Assembly: GCF_020921035.1 (NCBI RefSeq)
Contig: NC_063153.1
Span: 14,694,001 to 14,758,000, forward strand
From: Rhodamnia argentea
Taxonomy: Eukaryota > Streptophyta > Magnoliopsida > Myrtales > Myrtaceae
Direction: 5' to 3'
Length of the DNA stretch: 64,000 bases
How positions within the stretch are numbered: the first letter of the stretch is position 1; every line of letters begins with the position of its first letter. The position numbers were made by a program, and so were the translations under genes. This document shows, one piece after another, positions 1 to 56,135 of the stretch. The notes under the pieces are model-generated. The model was not told where the DNA came from, made no database searches, and was given only the letters and a program-made list of their open reading frames with translations.

Positions 1-415
1 ATTATTACAGGAACGGGTAAGACCACGATGTGTACCAAGTATGCATATTTTCACCAAAAGAAAGGTTGGAAGCCAGCTCGTCTTTGCTGATACTTTTAGA
101 GCTGGCGCCTTTGATCAGTTGAAGCAGAATGCCTCTAAAGCTGAAATTCCATCTTATGGAAGGTACTTCCTTTCGTGCATTATTGCATTTTGATCTGCTC
201 CTGTATGCAGACGCCTAGTTCCTCAATCAAAATGAGTAGGACTGTCAGATTCCGTAAAAGTTAAAGTTAAGGTCTCCAAGTGCACATTTTTTCATCATGC
301 ATAAAATTATTTCGCATGTTTGATTAGTTTATCCTTCATTTACTCACGAGTGGGCTCACAGAATTGAGCATTTAGGACCGTCATGTTTCGATACAATTTC
401 TTGGCCATCAAATGA

Positions 416-801
<386 letters not shown>

Positions 802-1410
802 TAAGTGTTATTTTGGTTAAATCAAGAGACAAAGCATTTCATTTTCCATATTTTCCCTCTTCACAGTTGCCACCATTAAAGAAGTTATCTAGCATTTGAA
901 TGGGTACTGGAGTGGATTCATGTACAAAATGTTTGCAAACGGTTGCAATGTGAGTCTTCGGAGTAGATTGCTGCTAGCTTGCATGTACATGTTTTGTGTA
1001 TGTGTGTGTGTTTCTTTCAACCGCGGAGGCTATGATCCTATTCTGAATTATAGCTCAGGAATGAGTATTACTGGTTATATTCTTCGTTGGATTCTAACTG
1101 TTAGAACTACATACTTTGTGGGTTATGTTAATATACGTCAGAAACATTTATACTTGTTGTAATTGAAAGTTTTCATGGGATCGAAGGTGAAATATTCTCT
1201 ATAGAAAAGAAAAGAAATCTAGTTGGGAATCCAGGATGGATAAGTTTACCCGTCAAAGGTTACTTAAACTTATGATACTTTTGGATGTTCCTTTGGTCTG
1301 AGTTTATTTGTTTGCATGTGTAGCGTCGCAGCAACAGAAAGTCCTATCATCTATAGGTACTGGAGAACATATGGATCAGTTTGAAGTGTTTGATGTCAAG
1401 CCTTTTGTAG

Positions 1411-1470
1411 CAGTGATATATGGAGTTTGGGTACCGTAGAGCTCGAATGTGCTACAGGACGCTTTGTTGA
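1411..1470 (+). pseudogene. MKK6 exon-6 fragment fused into SRP54 copy A
   Basis: Right after the SRP54 sixth-exon remnant, the DNA changes to a diverged copy of MKK6 exon 6 (compare 37640-37700). The shared protein signal is S-S-D-I-W-S-L-G followed by LECAxGRF. The two parts meet at a shared AGC: SRP54 normally reads ...TTTTGTTAGCCGG and MKK6 reads ...CTACAGCAGTG. That is a three-base microhomology junction. Confidence 0.75.
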
Positions 1471-1484
1471 TGGGAGCAGGGAAA

Positions 1485-1514
1485 AGATATAACTCAGTGG
1501 TAGAGTGTCATCTA
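1485..1514 (+). pseudogene. Fragment resembling the 5' part of plastid tRNA-Val(GAC)
   Basis: About 30 bases containing GATATAACTCAGTGGTAGAG match the 5' half (acceptor stem, D arm, start of anticodon arm) of plastid trnV-GAC as I know it, with a few substitutions. No T arm or 3' acceptor strand follows, so it cannot fold as a tRNA. It lies in the composite insertion of SRP54 copy A, close to a clpP fragment, which supports a plastid origin. Confidence 0.4.
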
Positions 1515-1582
1515 GAACAAAAGTCTCCTCTCTAACTACAACAAAACTTTTCACGTTGCAGGAAAAGTGTTAGAAAAATCTT

Positions 1583-1660
1583 AAATCTATTGCCAATTTA
1601 GTTCTAAATCTTTTAATGGTGTTAATTTAGTCCTAAACCTTTTAAGCCGATGTTTACCCG
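1583..1660. repeat. Dispersed 'tttagtcctaaatc' repeat, member 1
   Basis: A short member of an interspersed repeat with the phrase 'caatttagtcctaaaccttttaa'-like sequence. Relatives occur at about 39895-40030, 49886-49990, 54540-56130, 56505-56600 and 56990-57080. It does not code for protein. The low-complexity, self-similar style fits a degenerate non-autonomous transposable element family, but no ends were defined. Confidence 0.5.
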
Positions 1661-1889
1661 GGCGTCGTAGTCTTGCCTAACCGTTCGCTCATAGATGCCT
1701 CATCATTTTCAACATGTATCTTTCCTTTGCTCATCTGATCTTGAATAGTTTGTTTGAGTTGAGTGTTAGTGCCATGCCCCTCAATACTAACCGAATGATT
1801 ATGAGTTACTTCTCTATTTAATAGATGAATAGAATATTATAAAATCCGGTAATAAGTAAGAGGAGAAAATCTCAAATCGGCTATTTGCA

Positions 1890-2003
1890 TAAACTTACTG
1901 GTATTCTTTTTCGCTACAAGATCAACAATCCCATGAGCTTGGGCTTCTGTTGCTGACATGAAAACATCTCTTTCCATATCTTCGAGTAAAACCCATAAGC
2001 TCT
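1890..2003 (-). pseudogene. clpP: Plastid clpP fragment in nuclear DNA (NUPT)
   Basis: On the minus strand this stretch translates to a run containing [20 protein letters not shown] and then VDLVA, which is the C-terminal block of plastid ClpP, the proteolytic subunit of the chloroplast Clp protease. It includes the conserved ED-M-x-RD-x-FM-S-A-x-E-A pattern. Only about 35 codons are present and the ends run into unrelated DNA, so this is a nuclear-integrated plastid fragment and not a gene. It sits inside the insertion that interrupts SRP54 copy A. Confidence 0.75.
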
Positions 2004-2005
2004 CG

Positions 2006-3065
2006 TGATGATCATTTTAATTTTTATAAAAATAGTTAAATTAAAAAAAATTACAAAATTTAAAAATCGACTTTGAAATCCTTGGCCAAGCCTAAAAAAC
2101 CAATTTTGACCAAAAAATATTTTTCGGTATTTTTGAAATTTCTTTTCATTTAAAAATGGCCAAAATTTGAGAAAAATACCAAATGAGGTCAGAAAAATCT
2201 AGAAAAATAGTCAATAATTTTATTTTAAATTTAATTTTTGGTCACTTTAAAAAAAAAATCAATTAGCATCATAGTTTTCCCCAAAATCATAGGAATTGAT
2301 GACCTAATTGAGCCAAAAAAATCATGGCAATCTCAAATGACACATCATAGGTTACGGGCCAACCTAAACCTTTCATGGTTAGCAAAAGTGAATGTAGGCT
2401 ATTAGATCGATCCTAGGAGCTCCATGAAAACACTAGGGTGCCCTAACAAGCCTATAAAAGCCCTAGGATAGCCCCACTAGACCTCAAGAAGGACACCACT
2501 CCAAAAATCCCTTCTTGGTTCAAGAACACACAAATGAGAGAGAGGGAGACGGCTGGTTTTCGAGAAAACAAAGAAAAAATCAAGTGAGAAAACTCAGAAA
2601 AAGCTGGTCGGGAAGGAAAATGGGGAGTTCGTGTGGTGTGATGATTGAGTTTTAGAGCGAAAGAGAGTTTGAGAGACCTAAAGGAGCATTTCCCACCGTC
2701 TTTTCGCTGTCTTTCATCCCCATGAGATTCGAAACGGCGGGTTTTTTACCCTTCGCGAGAAGCCAAGTCTGCGTTTTCTGAGTATGGGTCTTACATGTAG
2801 GCTACTTCATGATGCGTTTGTGATGCGTGAGTTTATTTCCCGAAACGTTGAATGTTTACATACTTTCATTTCGTTTGAGTGGTTTTTCTTGTATGGTGTG
2901 CTTGTGTGAAGTATTGGGGCTTGAATCAAGGCAGGCAACAAGTTAACCTAATCTGAGTTCGAGCCTAACTCTTCAAAACAGCTCAAACCTGCGATTTTGA
3001 GGCAGGTTTTTGTTATGATTTTGTTCGTTTTAGTTGTTCTTTCTTAGTTAATGTTATTCCCAACA
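2006..3065. mobile_element. LTR-like or solo-LTR candidate inside SRP54 copy A
   Basis: About 1.05 kb of non-coding DNA separates the plastid/MKK6 patch from the seventh exon of SRP54. It opens with a TG, ends near ...CCCAACA, and has a good TATA box (CCTATAAAAG near 2450) followed by a leader-like GA-rich stretch, all compatible with a solo LTR. No target-site duplication or internal coding region was recognised, so the class is uncertain. Confidence 0.35.
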
Positions 3066-4013
3066 TGGAGTGGTGACTAAAGATCAACAGCCTGAGCTTC
3101 TACAAATGCTTTCTCAAGGAACGTTACCTTGAGAATTATGCATGAACATTATGAGAACATTCTTAACATGGATCCAACGGGCCTGGCTTGTATTTATTCC
3201 ATCATTGGATATGATGCTTTATCCTATCATCCCATGCTTTTATTTTGAGATTCGTGCGAAGTGAATACTCAGCATGCGTGCATGCATGCATGACAATGTA
3301 CAAGCAAGATCAGTCCATGATCTAGGCTAATGGTTTGGTTCTCTTGAATCAAGTTTATTTCCATGTTATAGGGGTTCAGTTCTGAATTGATGCCCAAGGG
3401 TCAAGGGAGAGAAATCCAGGCGAAGATGAAAAGATATATGACCATGATGGACTCGATGACAAACGAAGGCAAGTCATGCTGTAATACATAGTTTAATTAA
3501 GTGTTTATTATTCTGTCTTATGGCTGCGGGAAGGCTTTAAATTCAAATCCTTGCCTGAATAAACAAGTTCAATTTGCTCTAGGGCTAGACGGTTCAAATC
3601 CAAAGATGATGAATGAATCAAGAATCATGCGGATAGCAAGGGATTCTGGTCGTCACTTGAAAGAAGTTAAGGAAATGCTGAAAATGCATGAGCGGTTTGC
3701 GTCGATTTGGAGAAAAATGAAGGGACTTTAGGTCTCGAAACATGCAAACATGAATGCATGGAGTTGTCCCACCTCAGATGCTAAAGCGTCGATGCATTTG
3801 ATTGATTGGCATTCTGATGTAACTAGTCAAAATGTGCAGGATTTTTGTTTGAGTTATAAAAACGGAAGAGCAAGTGCATGTTATTATTATTATAGTTCTC
3901 GTTTCAAGAATAATTAGACAAAATTCGTCGAATTTCCCTTTTTATTTTATTTCTTTTTTCGCTTTTTATATTTTCTGTGCAGATTTTGTGTGGTCCTTAT
4001 AATAGTCTTCTTC

Positions 4014-4225
4014 ACGGACACTGCCCCGTGCACCGCCGTGAACTTCCTGTTGCTCTACACCGGTGAAAGGGCGTCGGCCGCAATAGGAAGCCGCTCTACC
4101 TCGAGGGGTCGATGTTCCACCGCGTGATCTGGAGGTTCCTATGCCAAGGCGGCGGCTTCACCTCCAGGAAGGGGACCGGCGGGGGAGTCGATCTATAAGC
4201 CCAAGTTCCGGGACGAGAACCTCGT
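4014..4225 (+). pseudogene. Cyclophilin (peptidyl-prolyl isomerase) fragment
   Basis: A GC-rich island in AT-rich DNA. In shifting frames it encodes recognisable CYP18-type cyclophilin blocks: [40 protein letters not shown] and KFRDENL. These are the parts of the fold around the active site (the family motif FHRVIPxFMCQGGD). Frame changes occur near 4080 and 4190 and no start or stop is in place. The intronless continuity suggests a processed copy, since many plant cytosolic cyclophilins are themselves intronless this is only an inference. It is broken and not expected to work. Confidence 0.8.
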
Positions 4226-4984
4226 GAGTCGTGAAGAAACACACGAGTCCCGGGACGAACGGGAGTTTTTTCACCTCGGATGGTGAGCGATAACTGGAGC
4301 GCCGCTTCGGCATTTTCATATGCAAATTGACAGACAAAACTAGATATGATTGTCGAAATTGAACAGTTCATTACTAAATTGACATTCCTATATAGGTTTA
4401 GAATCCATCCTAATTTTCCTGCTCGTGTCCTCGTGCAAGTTTGCACATCAAGGCTCCGTTTGTTTCATGAAAATATTTTCCTCAAAATGGCAGCTTTTCT
4501 ATAATTAGATCAATAAAAAAAATTTCCACTATGGATAACGATTTATGTCTTCATGTTTTGCGAACAGTGAAAATAATTTATGTTCGACCAATCTTTAGAC
4601 CGCGCGCGGCTTCGGCGATCGAGCTTTGTTCGAGTTGAGCCTCGAGTAACGAATTGGTGTCGGCTCGACTCGAATCGGCTCGATCGACCTTGGGAACTTC
4701 TCCTGGGCCGTACGCGTGAAGCCCGATATGGGACCAAACATCTCTCTATCAAGCCCCAAAATGAAGCCCGGGATTCGCGCAAGACTTACCCAAGCCCAGT
4801 CCACTCGGTGAACCTGTTCGATCCACTTTGACCTTGCAAATCATATTGTAGTGGTAGATTTCGTGTTTGGCCCGGTAAAAAAATTTTCACTCGAAGCTTG
4901 GCCCGACTCGGCCGGGCTGGAGGACCGAAGCTATGATTTCACCTCATCCCAAACAATTTTTTTTTTGAAATTCCAAAATTTTGA
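4226..4984. other. No gene seen; possible MITE end
   Basis: Short overlapping reading frames on both strands at 4540-4830 are shadows of a GC-rich, TCGA-rich stretch and match no family I know. At 4452 the phrase CTCCGTTTGTTTCATGAAA resembles the terminal sequence of Harbinger-like MITEs, and a partly complementary sequence lies at 40475-40490, but no paired end was found locally. Confidence 0.4.
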
Positions 4985-5510
4985 TTAATTAGTCGAATTA
5001 ATTTCTCCAAATTAGCTTTGCCAAAGCTTGAACTGACCCGATGTGAAATAGTCTCATTTGCATCACCACCTCATCCTTAACAAATAAAATCGACATTCCA
5101 CGATCCATTGACTAATTACTTAGCTCCTCTGACCAAAAGAAAAAAAAAACTAATTAATTAGCTCCAAATTAGCTTTGCAAAAGCTCGAAAAAGACCAATA
5201 TGAAATAACCCCTTTTGCATCACCACCTCGTCCTAAACAAACGAATTTTCACATTCGAAATTTAATCAATTAATAATTAATTAGCTCCAGATTAGCTTTA
5301 GGAAAGCTCAAAAACGACGAATATGAAAGAGTCTCTTTTGCATCACGACCTCATCCTGAACAAATCAAATCGACATCTCGAGATTAATTAGTTGATTGAT
5401 TAATTAGCTCCATATTAGCTCCGCAAAAGCTCGAAAAAGACCCGCAATGAAACAACCTCTTTTCGCATCCCCACCTCATCCTAAACAAATAAAATCAACT
5501 TTCATTACAT
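4985..5510. repeat. Tandem repeat, about 125-bp unit, four diverged copies
   Basis: Four units start near 4985, 5143, 5270 and 5396. Each carries 'taattagctccaaattagct', then an AAAGCTCGAAAAAGAC-like segment, then 'cttttgcatcaccacctcat', then 'cctaaacaaataaaatc'. Units differ by roughly 15-25% as judged by eye, so the array is old. No coding potential. Confidence 0.8.
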
Positions 5511-19900: not shown

Positions 19901-21508
19901 TCCTTGGTGTTAGAGTACATGGACCGTGGATCCTTGGCTGACGTGATAAGACAAGTTAAGACTATCCTAGAACCATATTTAGCAGTGGCCTGTAAGCAGG
20001 TATTGAGTTCTCAGATAAAACTCTCCAGTAAAACACGAAGAGTTTCAATGAAGCTTGTCGACACTAAAGGCTGATTATTTGTGTTCAGGTGTTACAAGGT
20101 CTGGTTTATTTGCACAATGAAGACATGTAATACACAGGGATATAAAACCATCCAATCTGCTTGTGAACCACAGAGGTGAAGTGAAGATTACAGAGTTTGG
20201 TGTCAGTGCAATGCTAGCAAGCTCAATGGGTGAACGAGATACATTTGTTGGAACTTACGATTATATGTCAGTATGTGGGTACTACTACTTTTGAACTACC
20301 TTCCTGTGTTGGCACATAGAACAGGCATTTTGCATAGAACTGATATATATAAGTTAAACTAACTGTCATTATTACTTCTAGCCTGAGAGGATTAGCGGAA
20401 GCACATATGACTACAGCAAGTGATATCTGGAGTTTGGGTATGGTAGTACTTGAATGTGCTAGAGGACGCTTTCCTTACATGCAATCTGAAGATCAGCAAG
20501 GCTGGCCATGCTTTTATGAGGCTTTGGAGGCAATTGTCAAAAGTCCACCGCCTTCTGCTCCGCCAGATCAGTTTTCCCCAGAGTTCTGCTCATTTGTATC
20601 TTCCTGGTAAGGACTAGAGACTCTCATTACTTGTTTGCCGTACTTGCCTTGTATCCTCATTTTTGCCCTCACATGTAGCCAAGCTTGCGCCTTACCTTTC
20701 TGGGATTTTCATAATTCATGGTCTTAGGATTTTAATATTGGAATAAGTCCTCCGCAATATAAACTCTATCTAGCACATTCTTTGCCTCCGACTGGATTGA
20801 CAGCAAGCTATCTGCATCCCTCAAAACTGGTGTTTGATCTCACCAAATTTGTGATCTTTATGGGTTGAGACGCTGTTTGGTTTTGGTTCATTGTCTGTTT
20901 ATCCGAGCGAAAAATAAAATCAGAATTAAAAAAAAAAAGCGTCAGGAAAGCATTTGGTGCTTCTCTGAGACAATTGCATGATCCTCTTTGAAGTGGAGTG
21001 GCATAATGATTTACCTTAACCCTAAAGAAACAAGTTAGCTTCGACTCAATAAAAAGATCGAGCTATTGTTTCAACTCTCCACTCCTCTTTTTCTGTATAA
21101 ATCGGATCTATCCAACTGATAGTGCTTGTTGGGGCTGGGCATGAGCCAAAATGAATGCAAAAGATGAATCACGATACTTTCCTCGACTTTCTCCTCATCT
21201 TCTCCTTGTAGAATCAGAACTCACTATTGTTTTTTGACATGCACTTTCCTCTGCGGTTCTCAGCATACAAAAGGAGCCTCAACAAAGATCTACATCTTTG
21301 GACCTTTTTTGGTAAGTGACATGTGATTGTAAACTGTTTGAGATCTAACATTCTGCCTAATGGTTATTTGACAATGAATTCCATCTGTCATTTCTGAGTC
21401 ATCCTTTCTTAAAAAAGTTTGAAGACAAAGATATCGATCTCGGGATTCTTGTAGGTAGCTTGGAACCTCTCGTGAGTTTTCTGAGATATCAAGGGCCTGT
21501 TTGGTAAC
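16954..21508 (+). pseudogene. MKK6: MKK6-type MAP kinase kinase, copy A, disrupted
   Basis: Exons matching the intact copy B: 16954..17036, 17638..17722, 18450..18584, 19775..19999, 20089..20270, 20382..20606, 21264..21311, 21399..21508. Defects: (1) intron 1 donor is gcaaac instead of gtaagc; (2) the glycine loop reads GKGNGG, not GKGSGG; (3) one base is lost after HNE in exon 5, giving ...EDM and TAA (20128) just before the HRD loop; (4) downstream of that, DFG has become EFG; (5) one base is gained in exon 6 (AGCAAGTGAT for AGCAGTGAT), restoring the original frame; (6) two bases are gained at the end of exon 7 while the exon 8 acceptor AG has become TG, and use of the next AG would restore frame; (7) a MITE sits in the stop codon. 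The lesion before the catalytic loop makes an active kinase impossible. A truncated N-terminal product with the MAPK-docking segment (KPLKLSVP) could still be made. Confidence 0.9.
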
Positions 21509-26974: not shown

Positions 26975-30587
<3,613 letters not shown>

Positions 30588-37100: not shown

Positions 37101-38617
37101 GAGTACATGGACCGTGGATCCTTGGTTGACGTGGTTAGACAAGTTAAGACTATCCTAGAACCGTATTTAGCAGTGGTCTGTAAGCAGGTATTGAGTTCTC
37201 AGATAAAAATCTCCAGTAAAACATGAAGAGTTTCAACGAAACTTGTCAACACTAAAGGATGATTATTTGTGTCCAGGTGTTACAAGGTCTTGTTTATTTG
37301 CACAATGAGAGACATGTAATACACAGGGATATAAAACCATCCAATCTGCTTGTGAACCACAGAGGTGAAGTGAAGATTACAGATTTCGGGGTCAGTGCAA
37401 TGCTAGCAAGCTCAATGGGTCAACGAGATACATTTGTTGGAACGTACAATTATATGTCGGTATGTGGGCACCACTGCTTTTGAACTACCTTCATGAAACT
37501 GAAACTCATTTTGTATCTGAGTCAAGAAATCTAGCTGTGTTGGCACATAGAACAGACATTTTGCGTAGAACTGATATATAGAAGTTAAATTAGCTGACAT
37601 TATTACTTGTAGCCTGAGAGGATTAGCGGAAGTACATACGACTACAGCAGTGATATCTGGAGTTTGGGTATGGTAGTACTTGAATGTGCTATAGGACGCT
37701 TTCCTTACATGCAATCCGAAGATCAGCAAGGCTGGCCAAGTTTTTATGAGCTTTTAGAGGCAATTGTCGAAAGCCCACCACCTTCTGCTCCGCCAGATCA
37801 GTTTTCCCCAGAGTTCTGCTCATTTGTATCTTCCTGGTAAGGATTAAACACTCACGTCACTTGTTTGCTGTACCCTCATTTTTGACCTCACGTGTAGCCA
37901 AGCTTGTGCCTTACCTTTCTGGGATTTTCATAATTCATGCTTTTAGGATTTTAATATTGGGATAAGTCCTCCGCAAAATATAAACTCTATCTAGCACATT
38001 CTTTGCCTCCGACTGGATTGACAGCAAGCTATCTGCATCCCTCAAAACTAGTGTTTGATCTCACCATAATTGTGATGTTTATGGGTTGAGACATTAATTG
38101 GTTTTGGTTCATTGTCTATATATGTCCGTTATATGTCACTTCTGTGATCAATTAGCAGCATTTGGTATTGATTATCTCCGTTGGAAATGTGAGAGATGTG
38201 CAAATCGGATCTATAAATTAGGAAGTGACCAATAGTGCTTGTTGGGGCTGGGCATGAGCCAATATGAATGCAAAGATAAATCACGATACTTACCTTAGCT
38301 TTCTTCTCGTATCAGAACTCAATATAGTATTTTGATGTGCACCTTCCTCTGTGGTTCTCAGCATACAAAAGGACCCTCAACAAAGGTCTTCATCTCTGGA
38401 CCTTTTGGTAAGTGATATGTGATTGTAAGCTGTGTCTATTTCACATCTAACATTCTGCCTGATGTTTTTTTTTTTTTTTTGCCTCATGGTTATTTGACAA
38501 TGAATTCTGTCGTCGTTTCAGAGTCATCCTTTCATAAAAAAGTTTGAAGACAAAGATATCAATCTCGGGATTCTCGTAGGTAGCTTGGAACCTCCTGTGA
38601 GTTTTCCGAGATATTAA
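34154..38617 (+). CDS. MKK6: MAP kinase kinase 6 (ANQ/NQK1-type), intact
   Basis: CDS join(34154..34236, 34830..34914, 35605..35739, 36963..37187, 37277..37459, 37613..37836, 38362..38407, 38522..38617), 358 residues, in frame with GT-AG introns. N-terminal MAPK-docking stretch [11 protein letters not shown] (about 8-18); glycine loop GKGSGGVV (79-86); ATP lysine K101 in FALK; catalytic loop HRDIKPSN (192-199, Asp194); DFG 212-214; activation loop with the plant MAPKK pattern S/T-x5-S/T at Ser222/Thr228; [11 protein letters not shown] substrate loop; C-terminal [11 protein letters not shown]. Closest in memory to Arabidopsis MKK6/ANQ1 (356 residues) and tobacco NQK1. In that pathway NPK1/ANP MAPKKKs activate MKK6, which activates MPK4/NRK1 at the phragmoplast to expand the cell plate in cytokinesis. 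Start is the first ATG after the CT leader and gives the conserved N-terminus. Ends FPRY TAA. Confidence 0.95.
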
Positions 38618-48746: not shown

Positions 48747-50089
48747 GAAGCAAACAAGCAATTTAAGTAATGAGCAGGATATCATAAGCAACTCATACAT
48801 AGACCAGCACACAAAAGAAAGATATCTCTAGAATATGTGATAAACATGACAGTCCTAAATGTTCAATTCCGTGAGCCCAGTGAAACGATAAACTAATCAA
48901 CATGAGAAAGAATTTGCGCATGATGAGAACATGTCCACTTACTTAGAGACCTTAACTTCAACTCTTACGAAATCTGACAGCCCTGCTCATTTTGTTTGGA
49001 GGCACTTAGGTGCGAGAACATATCAAAATGCAATGCACGAAAGGAAGTACCTTTTATAAAATGGAATTTTAGCTCTAGTGGCATTCTCCTTCAACTAAGC
49101 TCCAGAATGAGCCGCTGTCAAATTGGGGTCCAAAATCTGAAACACCTGTCCAAATTGACAAATTCCAATCACACGAAGAAATAAGATTAATATATTCCAA
49201 CTTCATTCAAAGAAAACGTAATTGCTAATAACACTGAGCTCACAGCCTACTGTCCAACACAGGCGTACCAACAACTCATACGGATGAAGAACCTTCCTAC
49301 GCATCGTGGTTGACTGTTTTCCGAATTCAATCCAAGACAAGCTTCTACATAAACTTCATCAAATTATATGCAATTATTCAGAAAAAATTCATCAAAAGCC
49401 CAGGCGAATTCACGGACAACTTATAGATAAATCAATCCAAAACAAAAACATGAATTCCACACCCCCCCAAAAAAAAAGAAAAAAGAAAAAACACATACAT
49501 GTTGGATGATTCTTCGTTAAATTCGGTAATCAAACTAATTTTCCCATGCTAATGGTTGGTCTTGGATTCTTAATCCATATGACCCGAATCGCAAATCCGG
49601 ATCGGTCGGGTTTTCGAGTGCCTTTGGTACGCAATTAATTGATCTTGAATTGACACAATTGCAATAGGTTTAAGATTTTTTTGATAATTTTCTCGAAAAA
49701 GAACAAATGGATTGGGCGGGGGTCCTTATGCTTATCCATGATGCAATTAGCCGGCTCCACGCTTATTTTATCCATCGGTCAAGGATGATAAAAAGGGAGA
49801 CTAATTCCTTAAAGCTTCCGTCGAAAGATACGTTGTTATTTTCTTATATGCGTATGTATTTCATGGAAAAATTATCAAAACAGTCATAAATCTATTATGC
49901 ATATATCAATTTAGTCTTAGCTTTTTTAATTTGATCAATTTAGTCTTGAATCTTTTAACAGTTCGCCAATATGATCGTTCAAGCCAATTTTGTTTTGAGA
50001 ATCGGATGAATCTATCCTCGATTTTCCTTGGGAGGGGTTTCAGTTGATGGATCTCAAAGGGCTGCGGTTTGGGCTCAAGTCTGAAGGCA
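48747..50089. other. Spacer, no gene recognised
   Basis: Short frames only. A member of the 'tttagtcctaaatc' repeat lies at 49886-49990. Confidence 0.45.
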
Positions 50090-50287: not shown

Positions 50288-51978
50288 CCTTCAATTGGAT
50301 CTCTGATCCTTTGAGATTTTAACTTGTTGCATGATATGCTGCAGAAACCAGACCTCATTGTATTTGTTATGGACAGTAGCGTTGGTCAAGCCGCATTTTA
50401 TCAAGCACAGGCATTCAAGTAAAGTGTTCCTGTTGGGGCTGTTATTGTGACTAAGATGGATGGTCATGCAAAGGGTGGTGGTGCTCTTAGTGCGTAAGTG
50501 TTATTTTGGTTAAGTCAGCGACATACCATTTCATTTTCCAAATTTTCCCTCTTCACAGTCGCCACCATTGAAGTGGTTGTCTAGCATTTGAATGGGGCAG
50601 TGGAGTGGATTCATGCACAAAATGTTTGCAAACGGTTGCAATGTGAGTCTTCAGAGTAGAGTGCCGCTAGCTTGCAGTCGCGTATATATGTTTTGTATAT
50701 GTGTGTGTGTTTCTTTCAATCGTAGCGGCTATAATCCTACTCTGAATTATGGCTCAGGAATGAATATCACTGGTTATATTCTTGGTTGGATATACGTCAG
50801 TTATATATGTTTTGTATGTTTTGTTAGAGCTTCATACTTTACGGGTTATGTTAATATACGTCAGTTTAGGTGAAAGATCACCTAAAGAAACATTTATACT
50901 TGTTGTAATTGAAAGTGATTATCATTTTCATGGGACTGAAGCTGAAATATTCTCTATAGAAATTTTTTTTGTTGGGAATCTAGCATGGATAAGTTTTACC
51001 CTTGGATGTTCCTTTGGTCTGAATTTATTTGTTTACAAGTGCAACGTTGCAGCAGCAAAAAGTCGTGCGATCTTTATAGGTACTGGAGAACATATGGATG
51101 AGCATGAAGTGTTTGATGTGAAGCATTTTGTTAGCCGGCTATTATGTAGGTAATTTCATTTGGATTCTTCCTTTCATTGTGTCTTTTTGATATGTATGAG
51201 TGAGATGCATTCTTTAGTGGTTTAATATTTTTGTGGAAACTATTTTTCCACAAGGATATGGGCGACTGGTCTGGGTTTATGAGATAAATTCACGAAGTGG
51301 TGACTAAAGATCGACAACCAGAGCTTCTACAAATGCTCTCTGAAGGGAAGTTTACCTTGAGAGTTATGCATGAACGTTATCAGGACATTCTTAAAGTGGA
51401 TCCAACAGGCCAGGTTTGTATTTCTTCCATCACTGGATATGATGCTTTATCTTGTCATCCCATGCTTTTATTTTGAGATTCGTGCAAAGTGAATACTCAT
51501 GGATGCATGCATGAGAATACACAAGCATGCGGTATGTCAAGATCAGTCCATGATCTAGGCTAATGGTTTGGTTCTCTTGAATCAAGTGTATTTCCATGCT
51601 GCGGGGTTTCATGCCAAAGGGTGGAGAGAAAGAAAGCCAGGCCAAGATGAAAAGATACATGATCATGATGGACTTGACGACAAACGAAGGCAAGTCCTGC
51701 TGTAATACATAGTTTAGCTGTTTATTATTTTGTCGTATGGCTGCAGGAAGGTTTTAAATTCAAATCCTTGCCTGATTAAACAAGTTCGATTTGCTCGAGA
51801 GCTAGACGGTTCAAATCCAGAGATGATGTCTGAATCGAGAATCATGCGGATAGCAAGGGATTCTAGTCGTCATTTGGAAGAAGTTAAGGAAATGTTGAAA
51901 GTGCATAAGCGGCATGCGAAGATTTGGAGGAAAATGAAAGGACGAGATAAAATGCACAGCACATTGATTGATTGACAT
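50288..51978 (+). pseudogene. SRP54: SRP54 copy C, 5'-truncated and broken
   Basis: Starts inside the intron before the fifth exon. Exons recognisable: 50345-50494, about 51044-51150, about 51264-51415, about 51590-51689 and about 51800-51975. The first has TAA in place of the Gln codon after QAFK (50420), while the rest of that exon, with [15 protein letters not shown], is clean. A stop also follows GFMR in the DWSGFM exon. The linker keeps [16 protein letters not shown], which copy B has lost. The M-domain exon ends [13 protein letters not shown] instead of MKGLKIPKKG. The GC donor (gcaagt at 51690) is kept. The 3' flank matches copy A better than B ('attctgatgtaactagtcaa' in both). N domain and G1-G3 exons are absent. 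Confidence 0.9.
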
Positions 51979-52137
51979 TCTGATGTAACTAGTCAAAATG
52001 CGCAGAATTTTTGTTTGAGTTAGGATAACAGAAGAGTAGGTGTATGTTTTTTTTCAAACTGAAGTTTTTTTTGCCTGTTTCCTCCCTTTGTCTTTATTAT
52101 ATTCTACACGGTATGAATTGGTATTATTAAAAGGCTT

Positions 52138-53330: not shown

Positions 53331-54433
53331 ACACTCTGTGCTGCCATAGTGTCTTGGATATGGTATGCTTGTCCCCGGTCGTTTTATTTGTTCCAAAGTC
53401 CATAATGCTCACAGTGGTGTGGTGATTGCACAATGGAAGACGTCTCCAATCTGAATACTACATGCTCCATCTTATAAAAGACACCTGGATGTAATGAAGC
53501 TATAGGTGAATATTTTGGAAATTCTAGTACTAAGTTATGAGGGTGACTGCAAAACTGGTATGAGGAATAGATTTCTCCTGATCCATAGCTAAGCAGGAAA
53601 TATGTAATGTAGTTCTACTGCTGTCTTTGTAAAACAGACGAGATTGTCAAACCTCTAGCACAATGGCTTTTTTTGGAAACAAGGCATGGTCAATGGATTG
53701 TGCTGAAAAGAAGTCACTTTGTTTGACACTTGTCTCAAGCAGTTAGCGTGGTTCGTTCTGCCATTTCACCGTGTTTGCAATATCTCAGTGAGATATAGCA
53801 ACTGATGTGAATGACTTTCTCCTTCTGTCATCCTGAATAGCGTGAGGGTAAAAGGGTGATCAAAACAAAGATCTTTCTATAGTAATGCCACTACTACATT
53901 ACCCTTTCCCTTTCTTGTGATGCTCACTTGATGCTGCTCACTAAGATGTTCTTAGTTAGGTTTAAGAGACTGGATTTTGTTATACTTTGCATCTCGAAGA
54001 CTTCCATTGAAGTTCAGAAGTCTACTTTATATTGACAGCAAACCTTGAATAACATGATGGCAATAGGCACGAAGAAATTCATGCCGATTCGGATGCGGTT
54101 TCCAGGAATATGATCTAGGACTATAAATACTATGACTATTAGACATGTGTTTAGAAGATAATCCTGGAAGTGCTTGTGCCTTTGCGAGGGCAATGGAGGC
54201 CAAGGATTCTCATGTAGTTAAAGCGTACTTTAGTATTGCAGTAGCAGTGTAGACCGACTTTTGTGTTCCGTGTTCCATGTTGCTTTGAAGCTGCCTCTGC
54301 AGCATCCTGAATACCCGATGTTATGCAATGTGACACGGACCGGTTGTTCCGTGTCCCCATCCGTACAAGTGTACGATGTGGCGGATCTAGAAAACAATAA
54401 CGACCCAGTTAACACGTACACTTAAGCATCTTG
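53331..54433. other. Spacer, no gene recognised
   Basis: No frame over 75 codons and no known motif. May hold decayed 3' parts of the preceding pseudogene. Confidence 0.45.
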
Positions 54434-56135
54434 TTGCCAGAACTTGTCTCACCTAATTATTCGAATACAATTAATGAAATTATTAAACTACTTATTGAAT
54501 ATCATCACTGGTTGTTAGCAAACGAGTGAACTAGCAGCCTAGTTCCGTCGATGATACTAAGTATCTGAGGACTAAATTGGCCAAGAGGACTATATTGACA
54601 AATAATGAAAAGATTTATAACTAAACTAAAAATCATCAAAATATTTAGGATTAAATTGGATTGAAATGTTTAGGATTGAATTGACCATTGTACATTAATT
54701 CTAGGACTTTTTTGGACACTCATCCCCATATTGTCACACTCTACGATTGGCACTGAAGTATCCGAATACAATTAATGAAATTGTTATACTAATTATAGGA
54801 TCATTATCATCACTCATCATTAGCAGACGAGTGAAGTAGTTCCTTCGATGATACTAAGTGTTTTAGGACTAAATTGGCCGAGAGGACTACATTGGCAAAT
54901 CGTCAAAAGATTGAGGACTAAAATTACAAATCATCCACATATTTAGGATTAAATTGAATTGAAAGATTTATGATTGAATTGGCCGCAGTACAATAGTTTT
55001 AGGACTTTTTTGGGCAATCATGCCAATATGGTCAAACTCTACGATGGGACTAGTTGGAACAAAGTTAGAACCGGTAAATTTAACTATAATTAGAGGCAAT
55101 GTGCGCCGAATATAATTAAAATTTTTTATAAATGTAATTGTAACTGTTGACCACTTTTTTTTCGATTGGTCGAGTAACCTTTTTATTTATTTATTTGTGG
55201 TCGGAGGTCGAGTACCCTTTACTAATTTACTAACTTAGAATTAATTGTAGATGTAAGGGTGACATTGTAAATTCGGTGTGGACACCGAAAATCGAAATCT
55301 TTATACATATTATAGCCAAACCTTGTTGCAAGAACTAGTCCCACCTGATTATTTTAATACAATTAATGAAATTATTATACAAATTATTAGATAATCATCG
55401 GTTATCATTAGCAGACGAGTGAACTAGTAGCCTAGTTCCGGTGAGGATACTAAGTGTTTTAGGAATAAATTGGCCGAGAGGACTACATTGACAAATCATC
55501 AAAATATTTAAGACTAAATTAAAAATCATAAAAATATTTAGGACTAAATTGGATTGAGTTGGCCGCCTTACAATAGTTTTTAAGACATTTTTGGACAATC
55601 ATCCCCATATGTTCGGACTCTACGATTGGCGCCTAATTATGCGAATACAAAAAATGAAATTATTAGACTGGTTATTGGACTATCATCACCGATCGTTCGC
55701 AGACGAGTGAACTAGTAGCCTAGTTCCGACGATGATACCAAGTGTTTTAGGAATAAATTGGCCGAGATGACTACATTAGCAAAACATCCAAACATTTAGG
55801 ACTAAACTACAAATCATAAAAATATTTAAGACTAAATTGGATTGAATTGGCCGCCGTAAAATAGTTTTTATAACTTCTTTGGGCAATCATCCCCATATGG
55901 TCGGACACTACGATTGGCACCTAATTATTACAATACAAAAAGTGAAATTATTATACTGATTATCGGATTATCATAACTGGTTGTTAGCAGACAAGTGAAC
56001 TAGTAGCCTATTTCCATTGATGATACTAAGTGTTTTAGGATTAAATTGGCAAATCGTCAATTCAGAGCTAAATTAGTACAACTTAAATGTTTATATCTTG
56101 GTATAATAAATTTAGGGCTTTTTCTATAATTTTCC
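54434..56135. repeat. Tandem repeat array, about 300-bp unit, five copies
   Basis: Units begin near 54434, 54759, 55327, 55640 and 55930. Each has 'cgaatacaattaatgaaatt', then 'agcagacgagtgaactagta', then 'gatgatactaagtgttttag', then 'gactaaattggccgagagga', then 'aatcatccccatatggtc' and 'ctctacgattggc'. A non-repeat spacer lies at about 55060-55320 between the second and third units, and the fifth unit is truncated. No coding. Parts of the unit are the dispersed 'gactaaattgg' repeat. Confidence 0.85.

Follow-up and report, generated by a model that had tools for sequence, protein, structure and literature searches.

A neighbouring kinase exon piece, organelle-type DNA and repeat fragments fill a probable break-repair scar in an SRP54 pseudogene of Rhodamnia argentea

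The window analysed here is a 64-kb stretch of plant nuclear DNA from Rhodamnia argentea (C4:14694001-14758000, within an assembly of 346.7 Mb and 74 contigs), which contains three SRP54-like gene copies, here termed A, B and C, together with two copies of an MKK6-like kinase. A fourth SRP54 copy (P, below the C2 copy) lies outside the window at ~25.29 Mb on C2. The SRP54 name is based on an exon of copy B, which matches PF00448 (E 1.3e-15) and SRP54 chains in the PDB (best E 1e-15). Exon 6 of MKK6 copy 2 (37608-37840 with flanks, forward strand) has an open frame and is of the MAPKK type (Pkinase E 8e-9; PDB MAP2K1 E 1.8e-13), and exon 6 of MKK6 copy 1 (20379-20610, forward strand) carries a one-base insertion at the homologous spot. 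The label MKK6, as opposed to that of another plant MAPKK, was taken over from the initial annotation of this DNA and is presumptive. SRP54 copy C is rearranged, its 5' part (48842-49459) lying in the opposite orientation to its 3' part (50290-52054). A repeat array with a spacing of ~288 bp, whose units are 77-85% alike, occupies 54430-56053.

SRP54 copy A, whose 5' start lies beyond the left edge of the window, is present in two separated parts. The left part (1-1408, forward strand), comprising exons and introns, matches B at 85% (28295-29765), C at 79% (50290-51131) and the C2 copy at 83%. The right part (3069-3888, forward strand) matches B at 77% (29914-30521), C at 79% (51296-52054) and the C2 copy at 84%. 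Copy A is a pseudogene, as its exons upstream of the interruption carry frameshifting deletions in a three-way alignment. A fragment of a cyclophilin (Pro_isomerase) gene lies just downstream of it at 4097-4174 (E 5.5e-4, slightly below the Pfam cut-off) and is perhaps another gene scrap, and beside it, at 4940-5503, stands a direct repeat whose four copies are spaced at 123-157 bp.

The two parts are separated by an insertion of 1,660 bp (1409-3068), which stands in place of ~158 bp of SRP54 sequence. The stretch absent from copy A measures 148 bp in B (29766-29913, forward strand), 158 bp in the C2 copy and 164 bp in C. A piecewise search of the genome's own assembly resolves the insertion into eight tiles, seven of which match other DNA of the cell; both this and the loss of ~158 bp relative to the uninterrupted copies are features of filler DNA. 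Rfam returns only two hits on the insertion, far below gathering scores, and ARAGORN finds no tRNA in the window, the trnV piece described below being part of a tRNA only.

Tile 1 (1409-1465, forward strand) is 57 bp of MKK6 exon 6. It agrees with MKK6 copy 2 at 50 of 57 positions (37646-37702; 12.3% divergence, 7/57) and with copy 1 at 47 of 54 (20419-20472; 13.0%, 7/54). The match to copy 2 has an E value of 3.7e-14 within the window, and the genome-wide values of 1.0e-11 for copy 2 and 4.4e-10 for copy 1 mean that the resemblance is not due to chance. When the whole MKK6 exon is the query, a distant kinase on C4 is also found at 69%. The assignment depends on the DNA match, because the 32-residue translation of the patch alone hits no Pfam family and finds MAP2K4 as its best PDB match with an E value of 0.25. 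As the tile is about equidistant from the two MKK6 copies, the donor is not fixed to a single one of them, and either may represent the donor lineage. The initial annotation held that copy A passes from SRP54 into about 60 bases of MKK6 exon 6, contributed by a neighbour in the duplicated block. The alignment that it proposed, against B, C and both MKK6 exons, bears out the passage and the neighbouring donor: the collinearity of copy A with B and C extends to 1408, the MKK6 match follows at 1409-1465, and searches of the 346.7-Mb assembly gave no further close match for these bases. While 57 of these bases are confirmed, the MKK6 piece is only the beginning, with more foreign DNA (1466-3068) intervening before SRP54 resumes at 3069.

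The join between SRP54 and MKK6 is blunt when read base for base. Here copies B, C and the C2 copy all have TTTTGTTAGCC, MKK6 copy 2 has TACAGCAGTG, and copy A has TTTTGT followed by AGCAGTG. AGC is common to both parents only given a one-base gap (a lost T) against the other three SRP54 copies, so that the strict 3-bp AGC microhomology previously read at this point was rejected. The idea of a coding patch transplanted from one gene into another was likewise abandoned. The MKK6 piece is unable to act as coding sequence because it lies in a frame other than that of SRP54, meets a TAG stop at 1437-1439 and follows exons that were already frameshifted. No open reading frame crosses the join, as a functional chimeric gene would need; the join yields no SRP54-MKK6 protein and the scar is without a coding role. 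A Thr codon in the patch was at first taken as ancestral and this reading was then dropped, the plant MKK6 residue at that position presumably being Ile.

Organelle-type DNA follows immediately. Tile 2 (1463-1510, forward strand) comprises the 5' end of a plastid-type trnV-GAC with upstream sequence, and agrees at 44 of 48 positions with nuclear C4:2661112-2661159 (reverse strand), where ARAGORN identifies a tRNA-Val(GAC) and Rfam likewise hits a tRNA. No plastid contig occurs among the own-genome matches of this tile, and we assume its plastid origin from the tRNA type. Exact-pattern scans with the trnV piece found no match in viral and bacterial collections, as expected for plant sequence. 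Tile 3 (1511-1561, forward strand) is mitochondrial DNA, with 45 of 51 positions shared with C36 and C14 and 43 of 51 with nuclear C10. C14 carries mitochondrial rps4 (PDB uS4m, E 3.7e-178), and C36 is 99.9% identical to C14 across 3 kb. Tile 4 (1560-1645) belongs to a nuclear repeat that is dispersed in many copies over C1-C9 and C11; among the best 40 of 807 candidates scored, the top two matches reach 83% and 88%. Tile 5 is a 60-bp stretch (1646-1705) to which no donor is assigned, an own-genome search with 1640-1712 giving the self-match only.

Tile 6 (1706-1785, forward strand) is again mitochondrial, agreeing at 75 of 80 positions with C16:97232-97311 (E 8e-27); on C16 there is a stop-free cox3 frame of 314 residues (E 1.1e-102). 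Tile 7 (1781-1999, reverse strand) is the last exon of plastid clpP with its 3' flank, at 90% to C23, C43 and C46 and, over 1806-1999, at 89% to nuclear C11. Open reading frames in the matching stretch of C23 encode Clp protease (plastid-type ClpP), and translation of the tile 7 region matches PF00574 (E 5.8e-6). Tile 8 (2009-3068, forward strand) represents part of a long, dispersed nuclear repeat, at 77% to C11:1874073-1875147 and with many partial copies among the best 40 of 1744 candidates scored. The match itself covers 2009-3066, its start possibly lies at ~2001, and 3067-3068 could also be read as SRP54. This tile is cut at both ends, since other copies begin earlier and extend beyond its 3' end. 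These features, together with the lack of a flanking duplication, led us to reject a clean solo-LTR insertion at 2009-3065, for which there are TG...CA-like ends.

Five of the nine joins are blunt or share 2-4 bp, as in filler DNA, a count that leaves out the mitochondrial/repeat join and the two joins flanking tile 5 and that includes the repeat/SRP54 join with a mismatch in copy A. Besides the blunt SRP54/MKK6 join, the donors at the MKK6/trnV join have TTTC in common, of which copy A retains TTT; the trnV/mitochondrial join (1510/1511) is blunt; and AT is shared at the mitochondrial/clpP join (~1781-1785). At the repeat/SRP54 join GAA is common to the donors and copy A has GGA. About 9 bp without a clear source lie between the clpP and repeat tiles.

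The insertion is very probably an old complex filler-DNA scar, formed when a break in copy A lost ~158 bp and its ends were joined through a chain of scraps. In such a model a double-strand break would open in the surplus copy A, and non-homologous or microhomology-mediated end joining would close the ends with the gap filled by the chain. Some 57 bp of MKK6 exon 6 would have come, by copying or by release, from the neighbouring gene, today 19-36 kb away, and would be followed in order by plastid-type trnV, mitochondrial DNA, a nuclear repeat, mitochondrial DNA, plastid clpP and the 1-kb repeat fragment. Collinearity on both sides, the SRP54 stretch lost from copy A, the unrelated donors and their identities, the near abutment of the tiles, the joins, the similar divergence and the lack of an inverted repeat pairing the ends support break repair. 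The donorless 60 bp of tile 5, the 1-kb repeat, which is possibly a separate event, the ~9 bp at the clpP/repeat join and the donors not fixed to single copies count against it. Template switching or end joining, as put forward in the initial annotation, thus stands as the best explanation at a break, although the product is a gap-filling patchwork rather than a simple two-gene chimera. We infer that the event was single and that the MKK6 piece is a copy and not an excised fragment, as well as the repair pathway and the source of the organelle pieces. That the MKK6 donor lies so close, in the same 64 kb of a 346.7-Mb genome, suggests local copying, in what is a single case.

The organelle tiles may have been taken straight from the organelles or from older nuclear copies. 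Tiles 2, 3 and 7 also match organelle-like copies on nuclear chromosomes and may therefore derive from older nuclear organelle insertions. The organelle contigs are slightly ahead of the nuclear copies for tile 3 (45 versus 43 of 51) and tile 7 (90% versus 89%), a difference that is not decisive.

Compared with its best match, the MKK6 piece differs at 7/57 positions, trnV at 4/45 (against its nuclear copy), the mitochondrial pieces at 6/51 and 5/80 and clpP at 15/219. Pooled over these five tiles the divergence is 8.2% and homogeneous (p=0.54), in a test that left out both repeats and the unassigned tile 5 and has low power at lengths of 45-219 bp. Among the SRP54 copies the differences amount to 11-16%, and in the MKK6 block to 11%. 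Given the similar divergence of the five tiles, one old event of approximately the age of the duplications suffices and fits, weak as the divergence test is. Only tentatively can this be sharpened to a single repair burst, at about the time when the SRP54-MKK6 block was amplified, that chained together a copied neighbour exon with plastid and mitochondrial DNA. Such a burst is made less likely by the fact that three of the organelle-type tiles match nuclear copies too. A series of events, which would not exclude break repair, is similarly tentative: the MKK6 and organelle patch would have come first, the 1-kb repeat later and separately, and a deletion thereafter. A separate arrival would suit the repeat fragment, which exceeds the other tiles in length by a wide margin, comes from a multicopy family and has its left end near where other copies begin. 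However, it is cut at its 3' side and abuts SRP54 directly, no flanking duplication is seen in the junction sequences, and the near abutment of the assigned tiles and the similar divergence of the five tested ones also speak against a series.

The remaining explanations are less probable than either of these. One of them follows the template switch between SRP54 and MKK6 during block duplication that the initial annotation envisaged, and would take the rest of the sequence to be unrelated. The donor is indeed a neighbour, and as 64 kb is 0.02% of 346.7 Mb such nearness is unlikely by chance; the divergence of the patch is also of about the same order as that of the block. A switch between two genes is nevertheless unlikely, as plastid-type and mitochondrial tiles directly follow MKK6 ahead of the resumption of SRP54, and the join lacks strict microhomology. 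Helitrons and Pack-MULEs capture exon pieces and the region is repeat-rich, which would favour gene-fragment capture by a mobile element of one of these types. Yet the ends of the insertion are not paired by a terminal inverted repeat, as those of a Pack-MULE would be, target DNA has been lost, and the MKK6-trnV-mitochondrial chain is found once in the genome. A Helitron would have 5' TC and a 3' hairpin with CTRR as its termini; a scan for plain CTRRT strings shows six of them inside the insertion. Transposon capture was set aside as very improbable, on a scan that covered inverted repeats and, for Helitron ends, CTRRT strings. We give as little weight to an artefact of assembly in which unrelated reads were joined. 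Organelle scraps can contaminate assemblies, but five tiles are 6-12% off their best matches, differences that the joining of known sequences cannot create, and the window is without Ns.

A filler-DNA scar of this composition has close relatives among known systems. Wicker et al. reportedly described in 2010 a gap patching that moves gene pieces, and the likeness is that a gene fragment fills a break; here it is a tiny exon piece in a mixed chain and not a whole gene. PMC3445842 describes the mechanism of gap patching with gene pieces and also states that elements of the Helitron and Pack-MULE type capture exon pieces. Numins are mosaic mitochondrial-plastid nuclear insertions in plants (Portugez et al. 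2018, PMC6215612), and blunt and short-microhomology joins are given there as a signature of mosaic organelle insertions. The scar resembles numins in having plastid and mitochondrial pieces side by side within nuclear DNA (at ~1781-1785, and at 1510/1511 where trnV is identified through a nuclear copy only) and in its blunt or short-microhomology inner joins, and it is unlike them in not consisting of organelle DNA alone, since it also takes in a piece of an MKK6 exon and two nuclear repeats. A review of NUPTs and NUMTs describes organelle scraps as break filler with micro-identities of 1-7 bp or blunt joins (PMC7037861), which agrees with the organelle scraps at this break, again with the difference that the present scar holds other DNA as well. 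The maize p2/p1 chimera contains 50 bp of complex filler DNA with two nearby sites as its source (Goettel and Messing 2009, PMC2686159), and it shares with our locus a deletion filled from nearby sites within a tandem gene cluster, being ascribed to NHEJ. In the same source that chimera is expressed, whereas the scar described here measures 1,660 bp, has seven assigned pieces and lies in a dead copy. Our literature search found no paper on a tandem duplication of SRP54 and MKK6.

The scar neither makes a new gene nor shows a new mechanism. It is a mosaic of numin-like character into which a neighbour's exon was also drawn, and as such a clear new instance of a process already known. Three insertion-free copies in the same genome make both outer borders and several inner joins readable at base level; the numin survey omitted terminal borders for want of close enough genomes (PMC6215612), and uninterrupted paralogues supply the comparison here. 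One chain unites a neighbour-derived exon piece with plastid-type and mitochondrial-type DNA. Should this chain have arisen in a single burst, the local copying of filler and the capture of cytoplasmic DNA would be one repair reaction and not two.
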